Part shown: positions 2,490 through 10,844 of the stretch, one piece after another
Layout: every line of letters begins with the position of its first letter
Numbering within the stretch: position 1 is the first letter of the stretch
NCBI GenBank assembly: GCA_025359125.1
Contig: JANYHI010000015.1
Coordinates: 1-64,000 of the forward strand
Length of the DNA stretch: 64,000 bases
Reading direction: 5' to 3'
From: Cytophagales bacterium
GTDB lineage: Bacteria > Bacteroidota > Bacteroidia > Cytophagales > Cyclobacteriaceae
Translations under genes and position numbers: made by a program
The notes under the pieces: model-generated
Database searches by the model: none
The model's input: only the letters and a program-made list of their open reading frames with translations
What the model was told of the DNA's origin: nothing

Positions 2490-2558
2490 ACAACTACCTA
2501 TTCATTATTTAGCTGTCCAAAACAATAGCTATCTTTATCTTTACAAAATCAGCATGTG

Positions 2559-2804
2559 ATGAAAACAGTTACTATCCAAATGGAAGATGATGCTGCCAAA
2601 ATATGGCAAACTCTTCCTATTGAGGCACAGTCGATTCTAACATCTGGTGCGCTATCAGCATTGTTGGCCGGAGAATTGTATCCAACTGGCACCGACCAAT
2701 TGGAACTGGCTATTTCGCTAGCAGAAAAAGGCGTTCCTGCTAATATGATCAGCAGATTGACTCGATTGGATAGGGATGTATTTGAATCCTTTCTTAGCAA
2801 ATAG
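2559..2804 (+). CDS. Probable antitoxin paired with a PIN toxin
   Basis: Small acidic protein of 81 residues whose stop lies 6 bases before the start of a PIN-domain toxin, the usual antitoxin-then-toxin order. I do not recognise the family. The C-terminal part (LAEKGVPANMISRLTRLDRDVFESFL) looks like a short helix-rich segment of the type that contacts DNA or toxin in such systems. The ATG at 2559 is preferred over the in-frame GTG at 2556. The pair lies on the opposite strand between the ABC exporter and HlyD genes, which suggests insertion into an older operon. Function is inferred from gene order. Confidence 0.6.
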   Translation: MKTVTIQMEDDAAKIWQTLPIEAQSILTSGALSALLAGELYPTGTDQLELAISLAEKGVPANMISRLTRLDRDVFESFLSK

Positions 2805-2810
2805 TCAATA

Positions 2811-3224
2811 ATGCGTTTTGTATTTGATACCAACACACTCATCAGTGCCATTCTAAAACCAAACGGTACCGTTATGCAAGTAGTGCATGTTGCCTTGCAA
2901 AAAGGCATCATTGTTTTTAGTGCCGAAACAAAAGCCGAAATAGTCAGCGTTATCCAGCGAGAAAAGTTTAATGTGTATCTTCCTTTGAATGATAGATTGA
3001 AATCGCTTGAGACGATTCTGGCTAAAGCCGTACAGGTGGAAACAAAGACAACTGACGTCATTGCCTGCCGCGATTTTACGGATGTAAAGTTTCTGAGGCT
3101 TGCCTTTGAAGCAAAAGCAGATTGCCTTATCACGGGCGATGCTGACCTTAGTGTCTTGACCGCTTTTCGTGAAATACCTATTCTTTCCATTGCTGAGTTC
3201 CGTTCTTTCATCACCGCTCTTTGA
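2811..3224 (+). CDS. PIN-domain toxin (COG1569-like ribonuclease)
   Basis: 137-residue protein with the PIN-fold start MRFVFDTNTLISAIL, which supplies the first conserved Asp, a central Glu in SAETKAEIVSVI, and later acidic residues in ACRDFTDVKFLRLAFEAKADCLITGDADL. This is the layout of the PIN toxins that cleave RNA with a metal held by three or four acidic residues. Length is normal for the family. It follows the presumed antitoxin by 6 bases and so should be co-transcribed and neutralised by it. The family call is firm; target RNA is unknown. Confidence 0.85.
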   Translation: MRFVFDTNTLISAILKPNGTVMQVVHVALQKGIIVFSAETKAEIVSVIQREKFNVYLPLNDRLKSLETILAKAVQVETKTTDVIACRDFTDVKFLRLAFEAKADCLITGDADLSVLTAFREIPILSIAEFRSFITAL

Positions 3225-3308: not shown

Positions 3309-4449
3309 CTACTTGTGTCTCCCATCTACATTCGGGTTCACCCAGTCATCCACCTTATCATACAACAACTGCCACAAGCTGCGTTGTGTTACAATGAAGC
3401 GTGCCTGTAACGTCATGCCTTTTTTCAAAAAACCTTTGTAGCCGTTTTTCAGTTGTAGGAAATCTTTTTCTAGAAGGCATCTAACTTTAAATACTGGTCG
3501 CTCATTATTTATTTGAACATCATTAGATATTTCCACAAGAGTACCATTGGCCAAACCCCATTGATTGTAGTTAAAAGCGTCAACCTGAAACCGAACTAAC
3601 ATTTTCTTTCTTAGTAAACCTATATCATTTGGATTTACGTAGACTTCCACTGCTAGAGAGGTATCAGGTGAGATTTGGGCGAGTTCTTGATTTGCGAATA
3701 CATTGCTTCCTACGTATAAACCAGTCATACTTTGCACATTCCCTCTTATTGGAGCTTTAATAGTGTGGTTATCCTTTTCTTTCTCAATTAAAGCGAGTTG
3801 TGATTTATAATCATCCAATTCTTCTTTATGAGAATGGAGATCAAGTTGCCATTGAGTGAGTTGGCTATGAATAAATATTTCCAAATCATTCTTTGACTTT
3901 TCCATCTCAAACTGATTATTCTCGAATTCTGCATCAGCAATAACTGATTGATCATGTAATACTTTGCTCCTTTGAAACTCAGTTTTAACTTTTTTCAAAA
4001 GAATAGAAAATTGAAGAAGCTTTTGTTTATAGTTCAAAAAAATCTTGTGTATAAAGGCTTGTTTGCAATTGAGGAGGTAGCTGTCTTGAACTTGTTAACG
4101 CTTCAAGATCTGCGATAATCAATTCCAACTCCTTAACTTTAGCTTGATAGATTTTAGTTTTTTCATCACTAACTTCATCAGATATAATGAAAAGTGCTTC
4201 ACCTTTTTTTACTTTTTGGTTTTCAACTATGTTAATGACTCTTATCCTGCCATTTACATTTGAGCGAATTGTGTTTATTTCGGTGGCTGGTCTTATAATT
4301 GCTGGAGATGAAACGCTAACAAAAATATTAATAAGGGGCATGCTAGCAATACACGCGCCAACAGCGATTAGGGCAGTTAAGTAAATAATTTTAGTTGATC
4401 TTTTTAAATAAATCTGCCCATTTTGGGTATAGTTTGGTAACCTTGTCAT
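3309..4449 (-). pseudogene. HlyD-family periplasmic adaptor, frameshifted
   Basis: The N-terminal part (4449 to 4027, 140 residues) has a cytoplasmic tail, one membrane helix (IIYLTALIAVGACIASMPLI) and a lipoyl-like half (IRSNVNGRIRVINIVENQKV, KKGEALFIIS). The C-terminal part (4037 to 3309, 242 residues) has a coiled-coil hairpin, the second lipoyl half (TIKAPIRGNVQSMTGLYVGS) and a beta-barrel end. Together they make a full-length adaptor that would join the C39 ABC exporter to an outer-membrane channel. The two frames meet at a run of seven T on the coding strand (about 4036-4042). Removing one T restores a continuous reading of QDFLNYKQKL. The cause may be a real slip mutation, phase variation, programmed frameshifting or a sequencing error. 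Gene order with the prepeptides and exporter supports the role. Confidence 0.8.
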
Positions 4450-4479: not shown

Positions 4480-5247
4480 CTATATTTTTTTCCCCAATAA
4501 CAGTACTGGTATTAGAACGAACGAGTTATTCATTATATGTAACGCAATGGACCAAGCCAAGCCATTCTTAATTCTGACATAGGTATAAATAAATCCGGAG
4601 AATGGATACGGGAGTAAAATTAGTATCATTGCCAAGGCGGTTTTCGAATTGAATTCGGTGATTGGATAGTTGAATGCATGGACACAACTAAACGTAATGA
4701 TTGATATTATTACTAACCAAGAGTGTCTAAGTTCTATACTTCTCCGAATGCTCAAAAAGTGACGATAGAAAAAAATAAAACCAAATGGAAGTGCTAAGAA
4801 GATGAACAAGAAACGATGCACTCTTTCTGTTGGAATAATTGTAGGAATTAAGATAATAAGTACTACGTATAGGAAATAAAATAGGGAAACTGTCAACGAA
4901 ACGGAAGTCAAAAATATGTTTTCTGAAAACCATCCCCTAAAGCCTAACTCTTCTAGTATGGGGAAGACAATTATTATTAAAACTATAGAAAAATATGGTC
5001 CATACGTGTCAGTAAGTTCTATTTGATTTCTGTATAACGGAATTGAGCCATCAAAAATTAGGGCCTCGGCAATAATAATGACAATAGTGCCCACTATTTT
5101 GATAAGTAGAGCTAAAAGAAAACATTTAGCAAAGAGTTTGAGCTTCACTTCAAAAGAACTTTTTGTTCTTAAATCATTAATCATTTTAATTATTCTTAGT
5201 TTGTTATAAAAAAATATGAGGCTGACTACTTTTTGAGCCATCCTCAT
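4480..5247 (-). CDS. CPBP-family intramembrane metalloprotease (Abi)
   Basis: 255-residue membrane protein with about seven hydrophobic segments. It carries the CPBP signatures: motif 1 EELGFRGW (Glu99, Glu100, Arg104), a later FSCVHAF with the second motif His, and HIMNN near the C-terminus. In bacteriocin loci such proteins act as self-immunity factors or in peptide maturation. It sits between the two prepeptide genes and the exporter genes in the same direction, so an immunity or processing role is plausible. The start could instead be Met22 (MINDLRTK), because the first 21 residues add an extra basic-hydrophobic stretch. Family call firm, role inferred. Confidence 0.82.
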   Translation of the reverse strand: MRMAQKVVSLIFFYNKLRIIKMINDLRTKSSFEVKLKLFAKCFLLALLIKIVGTIVIIIAEALIFDGSIPLYRNQIELTDTYGPYFSIVLIIIVFPILEELGFRGWFSENIFLTSVSLTVSLFYFLYVVLIILIPTIIPTERVHRFLFIFLALPFGFIFFYRHFLSIRRSIELRHSWLVIISIITFSCVHAFNYPITEFNSKTALAMILILLPYPFSGFIYTYVRIKNGLAWSIALHIMNNSFVLIPVLLLGKKI

Positions 5248-5298
5248 AATTTAAATTTATTGTGATTCTAAAATAATTTCCGCTAGAATTTTGTAATT

Positions 5299-5487
5299 CT
5301 AATGTACCTCGTAATTGCCAGTAATAATTAGGAATCCATCAATAACAGCATGCGCTGTTTTACCAAGTACATATCCGATTCCACTAGCTATGTTGTCTAA
5401 CCATTCCCAGCCGCCAGTAACTTGCACCATTTCTTCTGATGAGAGTTCAGTTAGTCCCATGCTGTTTTCACTTTGAAAGTTTTTCAT
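5299..5487 (-). CDS. Double-glycine bacteriocin prepeptide, second of pair
   Basis: 62-residue peptide with a 26-residue leader ending in LSSEEMVQVTGG, a classic double-glycine leader for C39 ABC exporters. Cleavage would release a 36-residue core starting WEWLDNIASG. The core is amphipathic and Gly/Ala-rich with a GxxxG motif (Gly12 to Gly16, GYVLG) and two Trp at its start, features seen in two-peptide (class IIb) bacteriocins. It lies 10 bases after the companion prepeptide, with identical leader and core lengths. No known bacteriocin was recognised by sequence, and activity is inferred. Confidence 0.75.
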   Translation of the reverse strand: MKNFQSENSMGLTELSSEEMVQVTGGWEWLDNIASGIGYVLGKTAHAVIDGFLIITGNYEVH

Positions 5488-5497
5488 ACTTGTTGTT

Positions 5498-5686
5498 TTA
5501 GTGTTTTAGTGAAAAAGAATCAAACCCTTTTGCAAAACCACTTGCAAATGCATCTGCTGCATCACTTAGCGCCAGCAATACATGATGTTCGCAATACCAA
5601 GGGCAATCACCGCCTTCAATATTTAAAGTTTCGATGTTACTGAGTTTCTCTAATCCTTCGATTTCAAAAATTTCCATAATTTCCAT
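5498..5686 (-). CDS. Double-glycine bacteriocin prepeptide, first of pair
   Basis: 62-residue peptide with an acidic 26-residue leader ending in LSNIETLNIEGG. The predicted 36-residue core begins DCPWYC, giving two Cys three residues apart that could form a disulfide, and continues as an amphipathic helix with a GxxxG motif at core Gly24 to Gly28 (GFAKG). Met4 is an alternative start and would shorten the leader to 23. It is followed after 10 bases by a second prepeptide of the same architecture and preceded by an HTH gene that itself ends in a double-glycine tail. Likely an antimicrobial or signalling peptide; not matched to a named family. Confidence 0.75.
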   Translation of the reverse strand: MEIMEIFEIEGLEKLSNIETLNIEGGDCPWYCEHHVLLALSDAADAFASGFAKGFDSFSLKH

Positions 5687-5744
5687 TTTTTAAGTTAAAT
5701 TTTATTTCTCAGCCCCGGCCGGAAGCCTTAGTACAAACATAAGG

Positions 5745-6092
5745 TTAGAGAGTCCCGCTAGTTGAGACTGGCAAAAAAAATTGTTCGCTCGGCCATAAAC
5801 TCATGTAAGAAACAAACCCGCCTTTAATATTTTTAAGTTCTTCTGCTGATAAACCTGCCGTTGGCAAAAAGCCAAAGAACAATCCACCCTCCTGCTGGTA
5901 TTCATATCTATTCTTTGTTGGGCAATGGTGTAATGGTGCCTTCAACTCTTGCCTTGCAAATTGCACCAGCCGGAAGAAGGTACTTCTGCCAACCCCCATC
6001 TTAGCGGCATACTCGGTAGCATTGCCTTTTACCTTACGTTTCACCAGATCATCCAGCAATAATAACAATCTTGTTTTCTCTTCTAAACTCAT
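5745..6092 (-). CDS. HTH DNA-binding protein with C-terminal double-glycine leader and short core peptide
   Basis: 115-residue protein. Residues 1 to about 78 form a compact HTH domain (KGNATEYAAKMGVGRSTFFR is the recognition region) ending in the EGGLFFGF motif typical of small Bacteroidota HTH proteins. After a short linker the sequence LSAEELKNIKGG (ending at residue 92) is a textbook double-glycine leader, followed by a 23-residue tail FVSYMSLWPSEQFFLPVSTS plus GTL. The fusion is in one uninterrupted frame. It is the first gene of the minus-strand bacteriocin operon and has a repeat array upstream. A C39 protease could cut off the tail as a signal or bacteriocin, or the tail could tether the regulator to the exporter. 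Both ideas are inference. Confidence 0.75.
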   Translation of the reverse strand: MSLEEKTRLLLLLDDLVKRKVKGNATEYAAKMGVGRSTFFRLVQFARQELKAPLHHCPTKNRYEYQQEGGLFFGFLPTAGLSAEELKNIKGGFVSYMSLWPSEQFFLPVSTSGTL

Positions 6093-6448
6093 GCTTTTAA
6101 ACTTTATTTAAACAACAACACGGTATACAAAATAGTTATATCGTCTATTGTTTTTGTAGGCATTTTTAACAAAAAATGAGATGTGATAAGCATGTACTTT
6201 TTTATAAAATTTAAACAATTTGGTAGCCCTATATAACAATTTGGTAATACTATGTATACGTGAGAGGTAATGCTATATTTATGCATTAATTTACTTTACC
6301 AATACTTAGGCTTTTAAAGTAAAAGAGTGTCTGCATCTAAATAGTATCAGTGATTCTAAAAAAATAAAAGGAAACTTTCTTGAAAAGCTATTTTGTTAGG
6401 AAAGGGGTAAATACATCAGGTTGTGTTTACTAATGCTTTAATTTGTGT
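6093..6448. other. 356-bp intergenic region upstream of the bacteriocin operon
   Basis: Very AT-rich stretch between the stop of the RsbW-like gene and the start of the HTH gene. It contains the three-copy direct-repeat array described separately and no convincing gene. A 60-codon minus-strand frame at 6104-6286 (starts MHKYSITSHV) has no recognisable features, overlaps the repeats and would run to within 12 bases of the HTH start; I regard it as chance. Confidence 0.6.
6215..6279 (-). promoter_or_regulatory. Three direct repeats at helical spacing, putative operator of the bacteriocin operon
   Basis: On the plus strand three 14-mers are visible: GGTAGCCCTATATA (6222-6235), GGTAATACTATGTA (6243-6256) and GGTAATGCTATATT (6266-6279), consensus GGTAaTnCTATaTa. 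The starts are 21 and 23 bp apart, about two helical turns, so a protein would see them on one face. Copies 1 and 2 also share the upstream bases, giving an exact 11-mer ACAATTTGGTA twice, 21 bp apart. The array ends 123 bp before the HTH start. LytTR-type regulators of peptide systems use two direct repeats with similar spacing, but the bases do not match that consensus well. The binding protein could be the HTH protein itself. Confidence 0.5.
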
Positions 6449-6859
6449 CTAAACAGATTTAGTAAGCCTACAAATATTTTTGCCGTTCTCTTGAAGGTAC
6501 TCTATTTTATCCATAATGGTTTTTACCAATCTAATTCCCAACCCGCCTTTTCTTTTTTCGTGAACTAAATGAGTAATGGTTGGTTCTTCAAAATGATTGA
6601 TGTCGAACATAGAGCCATCATCAATTATTTCGAAAATAAACTCTCCCTTAGCGGGGATGTGAATGTTCATTGAGATGTTATGATCTGGATTGCAGTGATG
6701 TGCGTGAATCATTAGGTTAGAGCACATTTCGTCTAATGCCAATACAATAGCGCCCATTTCTAAATCAGACACGCCTTGTCCATCGAGCGAGGTTCTGATG
6801 AACTCGCGTATGCCCTTTAAATTGTTAAGGCTGCAACCTATATTATATTGATAGCTCAT
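6449..6859 (-). CDS. RsbW-like anti-sigma kinase (HATPase_c_2)
   Basis: 136-residue GHKL ATPase. The N-box appears as LALDEMCSNLMIHAHH, the G1 box as FEIIDDGSMFD and the G2 region as KGGLGIRLVKTIMD. Proteins of this type phosphorylate a STAS-domain antagonist and bind a sigma factor or other partner. The start overlaps the end of the upstream STAS gene by 17 bases, which indicates translational coupling. The order phosphatase, antagonist, kinase is a complete partner-switching cassette. No sigma factor gene lies nearby, so the output is unknown; in Bacteroidota it may not be a sigma factor at all. Confidence 0.85.
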   Translation of the reverse strand: MSYQYNIGCSLNNLKGIREFIRTSLDGQGVSDLEMGAIVLALDEMCSNLMIHAHHCNPDHNISMNIHIPAKGEFIFEIIDDGSMFDINHFEEPTITHLVHEKRKGGLGIRLVKTIMDKIEYLQENGKNICRLTKSV

Positions 6860-7193
6860 TGGCTAACTTTTTTGCTTCTTGTTTGGTATCACGAATATTC
6901 AATAGATCTGCCAAGCCTAAAATGCTAAAAGTATTTAGCACCCGTTCTTTTAGGCCATACAAAACAAAACTGATTTTCTTATCTCTCAATTCTTCAATGT
7001 ATGACATAAACACACCTAACCCAGCTGATGAGATATATTCTAATGCAGAGCAATCCACCAATATCTTTGTAAATCCTTCACCCACACTTTTTGCAATGGC
7101 CAAATCTAGTTCTATGGAAGAGCTGGCATCAATATCACCTACTATGGCAATAATGTCAGCACCTTCTTCTTGCAGTCTCTTGATGTGAACCAT
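6843..7193 (-). CDS. STAS-domain anti-sigma factor antagonist
   Basis: 116-residue single STAS domain. The conserved phosphorylation loop reads LVDCSALEYISSAGLGVFMS, with the candidate phosphoserine in ISSAGLG. It would be phosphorylated by the overlapping RsbW-like kinase and dephosphorylated by the SpoIIE-type phosphatase encoded 37 bases upstream. Length and fold are typical of RsbV/SpoIIAA. The role in partner switching is strong by context; the physiological signal is not visible. Confidence 0.88.
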   Translation of the reverse strand: MVHIKRLQEEGADIIAIVGDIDASSSIELDLAIAKSVGEGFTKILVDCSALEYISSAGLGVFMSYIEELRDKKISFVLYGLKERVLNTFSILGLADLLNIRDTKQEAKKLANELSI

Positions 7194-7229
7194 GTAATTG
7201 TAACGGTTTAGTTTTTTTTATGTTTTTGT

Positions 7230-9293
7230 TTACTTGAATTTTACAGTCATAGACGTGTAATCATCATTAATATCTTCTGAGCCAGAGAATGCGTACAAAC
7301 TTTTTATTACACTTTCTTCTATTTCATTTGAACTTTTCTGTGCGTTTTCTTGTAGTGCATGCGCTAATCTTTCATATCCGAATTCTTCGCCTTTGTTGTT
7401 TTTAGCTTCGGTAATACCGTCCGTATATAACACCATCACATCTCCTGCGGCATAGCTGATTTCGTTGTCTTCCACAAAATTGCAATAGTCGTGGCTGCGC
7501 ACCATACCTAAGGCAGTACCCTTATCTTTTAAATATTCCGCTTTATTTTTTGAGGCGCAATAAATTAATACCGGGCAATGGCCGGCTCTGGAATAATAGA
7601 TTTTTTTTGCTTGCGTGTTGATTACAAAATAAGTTGCGGAAATAAATGAGCCTCTCTCCAAACAATAGACAAGAGCTTTATTTGCTTTCGCCATAAAGTC
7701 TTTTGGGTTGGGACCTTGTTGTGCCAGGCTGTGAAAAATACCTTTCATTTGCGACATATGAAATGCAGCAGTGGTGCCTTTACCAGAAACGTCTGCGATA
7801 ATCAAAGCAATTTCGTGATCACTAATTCGCAAGGTGTCATAGTAATCGCCACCTACCTCATCTGCCGAAGCTGAGAAAGCAGAGATTTCAAAATCAGCAT
7901 CATGTTCTAATTTTGTTGGGAGTAAACTTTGCTGAACTGTTTTCGCAATTTTTAATTCTTCTTTATATCGTGCATTTTGAAAGGCCTCCTCCATCAAACG
8001 GAAGTTTTCAATAGAGATGCCCGCTTGATTGGCGAATGTTGAAACGATGCGTGTCATTTCTTTATTAAAGCTATCAGGCAACTCTTTTAAAAGTGCTAAT
8101 GTGCCAATGGTTTCTTCTTTTACTTTAATCGGAAAAGCTAGTAGAGAACGAAATCTCGTACTCCGTAAAGAGCCTAAGTGCTTCGATAGATTTTTGGTTT
8201 TATCGCTACTCTGATCAAGCGCTCCCCTGATATTATTTTTCTCTAAATGAGCATGGATATCTTTGGTTTCCATTTCGGTGATTTGATATGTAAAGAGACG
8301 TTGATCATTGGCGGAACCTTTTATTTCTAGCCAAGCGGCATCTGCAAAAACAGAACTAACAGAACTTTCCAGTAAAATATTATAAACGCTCTCTTCATTT
8401 TGCTCGGTCTGTATCGATTGACTGATGCGTTGAAAGTTAACAACCTCTTCTAACTTTTGCTCAAACACAGAAGAAGTAGGAAGATTAAATAACACTACCA
8501 AAAAAGAAAAAGACATGTAGGTGATAACAAAAGCCAATAATGCGATATTGAAAATATGACTTTGAAAATCAAGAAATACAGGAGATTGTTGACTAATTAC
8601 ATCTGACCAAATTGTAACGGAGTACAAAAAGTAGACTAAATAAAAGATAGAAAGCAGCAGCAACAACAAGCTTGTCCATTTTTGTTTAAAATTAAGATAA
8701 GCTACCCACCGCATGTTAGCAGAAAGCACTACACCCAGTAAGCTGGTGATAATAATTGCAGTAGTTGTAATGGTAGTAGAAATAGTAATGTGAATACTAT
8801 CGTAGATCAAAATAAAAAACAATAGAATTTCAAAGGCGAGCCATGCCCTTAAAAGCCACTTTGATTTTTGATATAATATTAACCGCTTCCACGAGGTGAA
8901 GGCAGCTATTAAAAAATTGATGAAGAGAGCTAAGTGTAATTGATAAACAAAATCTAAGAAGATAACATTGGTTGCCAGCTTAGTACTGCCTAACAAAAAC
9001 AGAATCAAACGAACGGCAAGAGATATTACCGTGGCTATTAACCCCGTTGCAAAAACCTTCCAGAGTAAATCGGTGAAATTGAGATTTTCGTCTCTTTCTA
9101 TTCTAAACTTATAGTAGTAGAATATTGAGATGATGAAAACATCCAGCATAACCCTCGGCAGCCAGGTTGGGATACCTGAATGAAGGGATTTTAAGTCGCT
9201 AAAAAGAACGGTGATATCTGAAAAAACCAGGATCACCCAGGCAATAATAGCGCAGAGAGATGCGAGACGAATAAGTGCCTTGGTCTTGAACAT
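7230..9293 (-). CDS. Membrane SpoIIE-type PP2C phosphatase with GAF domain
   Basis: About 687 residues. The N-terminal 285 form a block of eight or so membrane helices, then a GAF domain (about 300-430), then a PP2C/SpoIIE domain with metal-binding motifs EVGGDYYD and LIIADVSGKGTTAAF, followed by AGHCPVLIY, VLYTDGITEA and a final DDYTSMTV. It would dephosphorylate the downstream STAS protein in response to a membrane or GAF-sensed signal. I place the start at 9293 (MFKTKALIRLAS). A longer frame from 9329 exists, but its first 12 codons are the hairpin and T-run of the guaB terminator. First gene of the phosphatase-antagonist-kinase cassette. Confidence 0.88.
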   Translation of the reverse strand: MFKTKALIRLASLCAIIAWVILVFSDITVLFSDLKSLHSGIPTWLPRVMLDVFIISIFYYYKFRIERDENLNFTDLLWKVFATGLIATVISLAVRLILFLLGSTKLATNVIFLDFVYQLHLALFINFLIAAFTSWKRLILYQKSKWLLRAWLAFEILLFFILIYDSIHITISTTITTTAIIITSLLGVVLSANMRWVAYLNFKQKWTSLLLLLLSIFYLVYFLYSVTIWSDVISQQSPVFLDFQSHIFNIALLAFVITYMSFSFLVVLFNLPTSSVFEQKLEEVVNFQRISQSIQTEQNEESVYNILLESSVSSVFADAAWLEIKGSANDQRLFTYQITEMETKDIHAHLEKNNIRGALDQSSDKTKNLSKHLGSLRSTRFRSLLAFPIKVKEETIGTLALLKELPDSFNKEMTRIVSTFANQAGISIENFRLMEEAFQNARYKEELKIAKTVQQSLLPTKLEHDADFEISAFSASADEVGGDYYDTLRISDHEIALIIADVSGKGTTAAFHMSQMKGIFHSLAQQGPNPKDFMAKANKALVYCLERGSFISATYFVINTQAKKIYYSRAGHCPVLIYCASKNKAEYLKDKGTALGMVRSHDYCNFVEDNEISYAAGDVMVLYTDGITEAKNNKGEEFGYERLAHALQENAQKSSNEIEESVIKSLYAFSGSEDINDDYTSMTVKFK

Positions 9294-9297
9294 TTTT

Positions 9298-9330
9298 ATA
9301 AAAACATGGCCAATCAAGAGATTGGCCATG
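9298..9330 (-). terminator. Rho-independent terminator of guaB
   Basis: Perfect 11-bp inverted repeat: CATGGCCAATC at 9305-9315 and GATTGGCCATG at 9320-9330 with a 4-base loop, followed on the minus strand by TTTTTA. It lies 42 bases after the guaB stop. Its bases can be read as MANLLIGHV in the frame of the next gene, which makes a false upstream start for the phosphatase. Confidence 0.85.
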
Positions 9331-9371: not shown

Positions 9372-10844
9372 TTACTTCCTGCTATAATTAGGTGCTTCGC
9401 GGGTGATGCTCACATCATGTGGATGACTTTCGTGAACGCCCGCAGCGGTGATTTTCACAAATTTGGCAGCCTTAAGTTTTTCCAAATTCTTGGCTCCACA
9501 ATAACCCATTCCAGCTTTTAAACCGCCTACCAACTGATATAAAATTTCAGCTACAGAGCCTTTGAATGGCACTCGACCTGAAATTCCCTCTGGCACTAAT
9601 TTTTTAATATCATCTTCTACATCCTGAAAGTACCTGTCTTTAGATCCGTCTTCCATAGCCTCTAAGGAACCCATACCTCTATAAGATTTAAATCTTCTTC
9701 CTTCATAAATAATTAGTTCACCTGGAGCCTCTTCTGTTCCGGCCAACAAAGATCCAATCATTACACTATCAGCTCCGGCTGCTAATGCTTTTACAATATC
9801 GCCAGAGAATCGAATGCCTCCATCGGCAATTATTTTTGTGTTAGAACCCTTCAACGCTTTGGCCGCTTCATATACGGCAGAGAGTTGAGGAAGTCCAATG
9901 CCAGCTACAATGCGTGTGGTACAAATACTTCCGGGGCCTACGCCAACTTTTACGGCATCCGCACCAATTTTTGCAAGGGCTTTGGCAGCTTCCCCTGTTG
10001 CTATGTTTCCAACTACTAATTCCAACTGAGGATATTTCTTCTTCACTTTTTTTGCGGCCTCTATTACGTAGACGGAATGTCCGTGGGCGGTATCAATGCT
10101 AATGACATCAACGCCAGCATTTTTCAATGCTTCAATTCGATCCAAAATATCGGGGGTAACCCCTACGGCTGCACCTACTCTCAGTCTTCCAAATTTATCT
10201 TTGCAGGCATTAGGTTTGTTTTTCTTCTTTAGGATGTCTTTGTAAGTAACAAGGCCCGTTAGCTTACCTTTTTTATTTACGATAGGCAACTTTTCAATTT
10301 TATAATCTTGCAGAAGCAATTCTGCTTTTTCTAGAGTAATCCCCTCAGGTGCAGTGATCAGATTCTCTTTGGTCATTATTTGCTCGATGGGTGTTGACAT
10401 GTTTTTTTGAAAACGCAGATCTCGGTTTGTAATGATGCCCACTAACTTTCCGTTTTGATCGATTACCGGAATACCGCCAATCTTAAACTCACGCATTATT
10501 TTTTCAGCATCGCGCACAGTAGAGCTTACATGAAGTGTAACCGGATCTAGGATCATTCCGCTTTGCGAGCGTTTTACTTTGCGAACCTGATCGGCCTGCG
10601 CCTCCATAGACATGTTTTTGTGGATGAAACCCAATCCACCCTCTAGTGCCATACCAATAGCTAGTTCGGCTTCGGTAACGGTATCCATCGCAGCAGAAAT
10701 GATTGGAATGTTAAGTTTAATATTCTTAGTCAGGTAACCAGATGAATCTGTATCGCGAGGTAGTACCTCGCTGTACGCTGGAACCAAAAGCACATCATCA
10801 TAGGTAAGTGCTTCGAATAAAAATTTGGAAGAATCGAGTGCCAT
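9372..10844 (-). CDS. guaB: Inosine-5'-monophosphate dehydrogenase
   Basis: 490 residues, the standard length. It oxidises IMP to XMP with NAD+, the committed step of GMP synthesis. The N-terminal barrel part ([18 protein letters not shown]) is followed by two CBS domains (about 95-205), then the catalytic loop [13 protein letters not shown] with active Cys308, the phosphate site [20 protein letters not shown], and the mobile flap near the C-terminus (GRVPFKGSV). It is followed by a strong terminator. A box TACTTTTG on the minus strand at 10884-10877 is a likely -7 element. Confidence 0.97.

Follow-up and report, generated by a model that had tools for sequence, protein, structure and literature searches.

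A winged helix-turn-helix (HTH) domain that continues in frame into a double-glycine leader is a recurrent architecture in the Bacteroidota, found in 68 of the 164 relatives compared here, with the remaining 96 lacking a GG site behind the HTH. In the reading we tentatively favor, which we hold at somewhat less than even confidence, the C39 exporter encoded in the same cluster would double as a sensor that processes or sequesters this leader-bearing transcription factor, such that exporter occupancy sets cargo transcription.

Architecture of the HTH-GG Protein

The window, i.e. the whole 64,000-nucleotide stretch of DNA that was analyzed, contains the HTH-GG gene at positions 5745–6092 of the minus strand. 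It encodes a protein of 115 residues (P0001) from an ATG start to a stop codon at 5745–5747, in a frame without internal stop. An earlier note on this DNA had described one uninterrupted frame joining an HTH domain to LSAEELKNIKGG and a 23-residue tail; this frame is indeed present, on the minus strand, with the HTH occupying approximately residues 1–70, and the plus strand of 5745–6092 contains stops and is not an open frame.

The AlphaFold2 model of P0001 is well defined up to residue 70 (10-residue pLDDT means of 85–96) and comprises three helices (residues 3–18, 25–32, and 36–48) followed by two strands (54–57 and 62–65), so that the N-terminal part (residues 1–70; 5883–6092, minus strand) is, as modeled, a winged-HTH fold. 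The winged-HTH regulators IclR, BirA, and BrxR are among its best fold matches in the PDB, where every match has an E value of at least 0.001. A PDB sequence search found no useful relative, many of the matches listed being antibody chains, and in Pfam P0001 matches DUF134 and HTH_29 at E 0.06, below cut-off. Of 20 family members, 17 match the HTH_11 profile at E values up to 0.1, the best being 1.7e-6. The HTH is followed by the predicted double-glycine leader LSAEELKNIKGG (residues 81–92; 5817–5852, minus strand), which was recognized with a leader profile measured against control GG sites and with the family profile, and by the 23-residue tail (residues 93–115; 5748–5816, minus strand). The tail is predicted to be unstructured, with pLDDT below 50 for residues 90–114.

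Two double-glycine prepeptides lie downstream of the HTH gene on the same strand, as the earlier note had claimed: P0002 (5498–5686, minus strand), with a weak lactococcin G-beta-like match, and P0003 (5299–5487, minus strand), with a weak Bacteriocin_IIc match, both below cut-off. The further claim that the HTH gene heads an operon needs correction, as a promoter-like TATGTTTG box stands right after the HTH stop, so that the prepeptides may also own a separate promoter. Further along the minus strand are a CPBP-type membrane protease homologue (Rce1-like; 4480–5247; Pfam PF02517 above cut-off), an HlyD-type adaptor recognized from its ORFs and domain matches (3309–4449, in two frames, 4027–4449 and 3309–4037), and a C39 peptidase ABC exporter (328–2489) in three ORFs (1956–2489, 1747–1875, and 328–1731), the first of which holds the whole C39 domain. 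The gene order, with the HTH first and the exporter last, differs from that of the relatives described below, and the C39 ORF is 3.2 kb from the HTH-GG gene. Between exporter and HlyD, on the plus strand (2556–3224), lie a gene for a PIN-domain protein and a small accompanying ORF, possibly a toxin-antitoxin pair. The genes upstream of the HTH gene (6449–9329, minus strand) resemble, by eye, a regulator module of anti-sigma kinase, STAS protein, and PP2C phosphatase.

The exporter and HlyD genes of the window are broken by stops and frame changes; in a tblastn comparison, the exporter of locus L067 matched the window in two frames, each match extending beyond the ORF end. The regulator and prepeptide ORFs, unlike these, are intact as frames. 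The window copy therefore belongs to a decaying cluster. The genome has no C39 match besides the one in this cluster, and since this exporter is broken, any coupling between exporter and regulator may be defunct there. For this reason, the general case is argued below from the relatives.

A Recurrent Fusion in the Bacteroidota

Profile searches with the HTH gave matches in 24 of 62 genus genomes and in 96/390, 61/392, and 46/396 genomes of the order, phylum, and class samples, respectively, with the weakest genus, order, and phylum matches being long proteins that are probably unrelated. Named relatives come from Cyclobacteriaceae, Flammeovirgaceae, Saprospirales, Chitinophagaceae, Marivirga, Fulvivirga, and Aquimarina, and GG-tailed ones from the first four of these. 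A distant relative (32% identity; NZ_AP019725.1, 3998–4267; L285), annotated as hypothetical, lies beside conjugation genes on a Bacteroides uniformis plasmid. The 169 regions collected, which include the first 20 kb of the window, yielded 165 distinct HTH proteins shorter than 200 residues, of which 164 were kept after a 65-residue minimum. P0001 forms a long branch on the tree, and L243, a genus protein that by eye resembles it, has no GG.

The earlier note had proposed tabulating how many homologues end in a double-glycine tail, and the fusion does recur: the 164 proteins fall into 82 clusters at 60% identity, 28 of which contain GG. Two of the 68 GG rows, L183 (GG in the wing) and L280 (at the frame end), are probably false leaders that were kept in the count, and some GG or GA proteins (e.g. 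L273) fail the GG rule and were counted as non-GG. There is little drift in position, the GG ending at residue 80–98 in 67 of the 68. The HTH itself appears to be under strong purifying selection, with dN/dS of 0.04–0.17 wherever computable among correctly aligned pairs of close relatives (the L263/L267 pair was dropped, its HTHs having been compared out of register).

The Leader and Its Link to C39 Exporters

Position −4 of the leader is hydrophobic in 90% of the 68 GG relatives, position −12 is hydrophobic in 87%, and position −8 is Glu or Asp in 41 of the 68; because a hydrophobic −4 or −7 was required in the choice of GG sites, positions −12 and −8 are the unbiased ones, and a profile is the fairer test. 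Such a profile was built from 62 GG-prepeptide leaders gathered automatically from the relatives' clusters (a few of them doubtful) and scored against 2732 control GG dipeptides in ORFs of at least 150 residues. It placed 57 of the 68 leaders above the 95th and 48 above the 99th control percentile (AUC 0.94), and the window leader outscores 99.96% of the controls. By this measure, the family and the window conform to the canonical leader consensus ending in GG. Nine of the ten members of the 60%-identity cluster around L201 have GG, the tenth (L180) reading SAG, and GG is retained there although leaders and tails diverge widely.

The GG proteins are strongly associated with C39 exporters. A position no more than 250 bp downstream of a C39 exporter was found for 36 of 68 GG proteins versus 9 of 96 non-GG proteins (p = 9e-10), and the difference persists when 60%-identity clusters are counted (14/28 versus 5/54, p = 7e-5). 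The exporter-adjacent GG proteins begin −3 to 226 bp past the end of the exporter gene, on the same strand. At least one C39 was present somewhere in the region for 51/68 GG and 32/96 non-GG proteins, which upholds the co-occurrence with C39 exporters that the earlier note had made a test of its proposal. A direct exporter neighbor is lacking for 32 of the 68 GG proteins, and 17 of the 68 have no C39 within the fetched region, several of these lying close to contig ends. Nine exporter-adjacent relatives have no GG. Of these, L079 scores strongly as a leader and reads INKK at the GG position, L277 reads NAG, and L206 reads YGT, the remaining six having low leader scores.

The order exporter, HTH-GG gene, prepeptide is found in L066, L068, and L072. 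The 15.4-kb plasmid pAT7 of Aureibacter tunicatorum (NZ_AP025312.1; L286, L288) carries, by its annotation, an HTH-GG gene (labeled HTH domain-containing protein), TolC, HlyD, and a C39-type exporter, together with at least four divergent ORFs that read as GG prepeptides, the annotated ones of which are called hypothetical; its HTH-GG protein and exporter are WP_309943463.1 and WP_309943437.1, respectively. A Persicobacter plasmid without annotation, read by eye, has the same content as the window cluster: a C39 exporter, an HTH-GG gene, two GG prepeptides, and a CPBP-like membrane protein. Several clusters also contain a second, shorter C39-like ORF (L066:10187–11199, L071:8264–9904, and L070:4142–5884).

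The Tail and the DNA beneath It

The earlier note had treated the tail as a core peptide, and one of its two readings was that the protein yields a signal peptide. Put fully, C39 would cut after GG in a bifunctional pheromone precursor, the exported tail being a signal or bacteriocin and the HTH remaining a regulator. The canonical leader and the exporter adjacency are both in keeping with this, and a comparable split substrate has been proposed for HetC in the part of PMC10986499 drawn on here. Moreover, near-identical HTHs can have differing tails, as pheromone types can; L201 and L205 are 94% identical in the HTH and 15% in the tail over 13 aligned residues. The tails do not appear to be conserved as peptides, however, an outcome that the earlier note had named among those refuting its proposal. 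Their dN/dS between close relatives ranges from 0.10 to 1.7 and is often near 1, and their lengths among GG relatives range from 0 to 43, with L266 stopping right at GG and having its operator 7 nt behind the stop.

Where tails are alike, the likeness resides, in the cases examined, in the DNA. Between L066 and L150, 2 of 12 possible synonymous differences occur in the tail versus 34 of 37 in the HTH, and nucleotide identity extends beyond the stop codon. The tail motifs SSITG and LLDGT were considered as a shared pheromone motif and rejected; where examined, such motifs coincide with the translated palindrome described below, and the DNA conservation extends beyond the stop.

Searches with the tail plus 120 nt as query revealed further copies of this DNA, without an HTH, within the same loci. 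Of 12 such copies examined, 10 have no leader-GG frame in the tail register, which argues against a secreted tail, and two (L068:8232 and L223:12161) keep the leader-GG-tail frame without the HTH, as a pheromone precursor might. The L068:8184–8342 and L223:12161 regions thus hold a second leader and tail, preceding another GG-prepeptide gene. A leader remnant that has lost its GG is seen in three HTH-less copies (L067:12805, L084:14320, and L223:4564). Away from the HTH, as these copies indicate, the element outlives the leader, and prepeptide cassettes seem to have been duplicated along with the 3′ end of the HTH gene. Profile scans sorted the element into six groups of 19, 8, 24, 10, 4, and 3 copies, eleven regions that duplicate named loci having been left out of these and the later nucleotide scans and the copies of near-relatives kept. 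A GG-type ORF starts approximately −40 to +160 nt from 55 of the 68 copies under a loose rule that admits a few doubtful cases. Element model R1 matches 14 of the 62 genus genomes, 13 of them within the 24 that are HTH-positive, although ten of the 14 gave training sequences; three of the other four are HTH-positive. A scan of the window genome with R1 gave no match.

Taken together, the conservation of the tail in DNA and the HTH-less copies indicate that the coding sequence of the tail is shared with a regulatory element belonging to the following prepeptide gene. The functional product is probably not the tail sequence as such, and the signal-peptide reading, which is weakened by divergent or absent tails and by conservation past the stop, is in our estimation unlikely.

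A slightly less likely alternative is that leader and tail are a neutral by-product of a lost stop or of a fusion to a former prepeptide leader, which nothing recognizes. The 96 of 164 relatives without GG would accord with such an origin, as would the tail dN/dS values near 1 and the frequent extension of the tail into the promoter region. Neutrality is difficult to reconcile with the occurrence of GG in 28 of 82 clusters, with the constrained leader positions, with the nine of ten GG in the L201 cluster despite its divergent leaders and tails, and with the strong link to exporter adjacency.

Predicted Operator and Promoter of the Prepeptide Genes

The element contains a 17-bp palindrome, mostly GT[CG]C-N9-G[GC]AC, and exactly 10 bp further on TAnnTTTG or a similar box; TAnnTTTG we take to be the −7 box consensus of Bacteroidota promoters. 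In the window, the operator-plus-box scan and the family geometry place the predicted operator GTCTCAACTAGCGGGAC, an imperfect palindrome in which 4 of 8 positions pair, in the last tail codons (5752–5768, minus strand). The scan locates the TATGTTTG box 10 bp past it (5734–5741, minus strand), and positions 5687–5733 (minus strand), which include a GC-rich inverted stretch, are the predicted 5′ leader of the prepeptide transcript. Positions 5734–5768 have zero mismatches to GTCY-N9-GGAC-N10-TANNTTTG and are the sole match with two or fewer mismatches in the 64 kb (shuffle mean 0.63).

Across all regions, 42 palindrome-plus-box sites were found, versus 9, 11, and 10 in three rounds of shuffling letters within 500-base blocks. 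Twenty-one of these sites fall inside an HTH gene or immediately after it, whether or not that gene has GG, and for 26 of the sites a GG prepeptide begins no more than 330 nt away. Among 343 palindromes, TAnnTT occurs 26 times at spacing 10 and 10 times at spacing 11, with 0–9 occurrences at each other spacing; near the 3′ ends of the 164 HTH genes it occurs 27 and 7 times, respectively, with 0–2 occurrences at the fifteen other spacings tested. Copies within one locus may share an identical palindrome variant (three in L177, two each in L265 and L223), and some copies in L215 and L228 have no clear palindrome (L215:11018 and L228:11308). Strict and relaxed scans for the operator in pAT7 and the Persicobacter plasmid produced nothing convincing. 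By eye, pAT7 has GTGCAATCACGTTTCAC twice ahead of a prepeptide, and in the Persicobacter plasmid the tail contains an imperfect palindrome, so that a variant operator in the two plasmids is possible. In L202 (1–9200, minus strand), small GG-less HTH genes with another palindrome, GTGAAAGATTATTTCAC, at spacing 11 stand beside one HTH-GG gene, and another prepeptide promoter carries GTGCTGTTTTTCAGCAC.

Among the HTH alignment columns, mutual information with half-site base 3 peaks in the recognition helix, at one column (0.75), and the runner-up, at 0.68, is outside that helix. A helix Ser goes with GTC in 15/16 cases, Arg with GTG in 9/9, and Ala with GTC in 2/2 (Ser versus Arg, p = 4.9e-6), a match that is hardly independent of descent, since only one well-supported independent pair on the tree differs in the residue (five on the best tree). 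The window follows the same pattern, its helix Ser pairing with a GTC half-site. The HTH is likely to be the binder of the 17-bp palindrome, as judged from this correspondence.

Alternatively, the palindrome could form a hairpin in RNA or be bound by a different regulator, with the HTH acting elsewhere. There is covariation in some paired columns, a DUF805b-related RNA-like core lies downstream, and the phylogenetic test, with its 1 pair, cannot tie the palindrome to the HTH. The 3′ core of the element in L066 and L223 scores 27.8, 26.1, and 23.6 bits against DUF805b (RF02914), the best being L066 (27.8 bits, E 2.6e-6), all below the gathering score of 35.6. These cores (L066:8339–8370, L223:12282–12314 and 9793–9825) lie downstream of the predicted promoter and ahead of the start codon of the prepeptide, and 16 aligned element copies have GGATGCCGAAAAGCGAATGAGTAGG-type sequence in common. 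For window positions 5200–6500, Rfam scans gave only chance-level matches (E 1.7 and 2.6); for eight loci only two tRNAs reached the gathering threshold, and for L228 the best match had E 1.3. RNA structure was rejected as the main explanation of the element, the covariation terms being small. Against a hairpin or a foreign site also stand the overall length of 17 bp and the box spacing, which are fixed though palindrome arms and center vary, the location of the palindrome upstream of the predicted transcription start, and the half-site that tracks the HTH helix residue; we regard this alternative as improbable. That the HTH was exapted as a folded recognition domain ahead of a core peptide and lost DNA binding, a layout as in the nitrile-hydratase-like and Nif11 leaders (PMC2887384, in the part drawn on here), is very improbable given the helix residue that matches the half-site, the operators at HTH genes with and without GG, and the strong purifying selection on the HTH.

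Proposed Mechanism

We propose that the small winged-HTH regulator controls the genes for the double-glycine prepeptides encoded in the same cluster. In a first step, the HTH would bind the 17-bp palindrome that precedes the −7 box by 10 bp in prepeptide promoters, one of which would span the 3′ end of the HTH gene itself; the sequence data make this step quite probable. The C-terminal leader would make the protein a ligand of the C39 peptidase in the cluster exporter, and probably one of its substrates. In a second step, which the leader and the gene order make reasonably likely, the leader would dock in the C39 domain as a prepeptide does, and GG would permit a cleavage that leaves the HTH and leader inside the cell and releases the short tail. 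In a third step, the free or processed regulator would report exporter occupancy, in competition with the prepeptides, such that prepeptide synthesis tracks export capacity. This third step we infer from the other two, and the three jointly fall just short of an even chance.

The direction of control can be argued both ways. The constant 10-bp spacing to the −7 box suggests contact with RNA polymerase and favors an activator. Plain sequestration gives useful feedback only with a repressor, and homeostatic logic favors that sign. Activation by cleavage would reconcile an activator with feedback. If the level of the regulator is set by C39, a retained leader and GG, a variable or absent tail, and a gene often placed between exporter and cargo are to be expected. 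The signal-peptide reading fits less well than the second reading of the earlier note, in which the exporter senses or titrates the regulator through its tail.

To our knowledge, how Gram-negative bacteria with many double-glycine peptides match synthesis to export is an open question. A leader-bearing DNA-binding protein with a predicted operator at the cargo genes offers a testable answer to it. If true, this would be phylum-wide, secretion-coupled regulation by leader mimicry, with the operator within the regulator's own 3′ end. Silent peptide clusters of Bacteroidota might also be found and switched on by using the leader and the 17-bp site plus box as a handle.

Comparison with Known Systems

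Prepeptides of the ComC/colicin V type are the double-glycine substrates of C39 (PCAT) exporters. The HTH-GG proteins share with them a leader with hydrophobic residues at −4, −7, and −12, often an acidic residue at −8, and a GG end, and a gene that often lies beside a C39 exporter; they differ in having approximately 75 residues of winged HTH before the leader, and no conserved tail peptide was found. FlgM and LcrQ are secretion-coupled regulators, the level of which is set by an export machine, the type III apparatus. The resemblance to these is one of logic only, in that the level of the HTH-GG protein would follow the state of the export machine, whereas here a C39/ABC exporter takes the place of the type III apparatus and the HTH is on the regulator itself. 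The 3′ core of the prepeptide-gene element resembles DUF805b RNA, below the gathering score, but the remainder of the element, unlike that RNA, is a palindrome and promoter.

The precursors of the NHLP and Nif11 families have folded long leaders, GG, and a variable C-terminal part and are clustered with an export system, as described in the portion of PMC2887384 used here. The HTH-GG proteins likewise combine a folded domain, GG, a variable C-terminal part, and an export cluster, but their domain is an HTH that apparently retains a DNA target. In Pfam and NCBIfam scans, no nitrile hydratase or Nif11 leader homology was among the matches listed (25 of 30 and 25 of 28 families for members). The sections drawn on from a survey of RiPPs in Bacteroidales (PMC10352776) report one HTH gene in a cluster and make no mention of a leader on it, and searches of the open-licence PMC literature turned up no account of an HTH joined to a double-glycine leader.

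A related regulatory proposal concerns HetC of Nostoc, a C39 exporter with a regulatory role. According to the part of PMC10986499 drawn on here, the N-terminal part of a cleaved HetC substrate is proposed to act on a transcriptional regulator, the substrate is unknown, and no GG protein is found near hetC. In the clusters described here, unlike in that proposal, the candidate C39 substrate is the DNA-binding protein itself.
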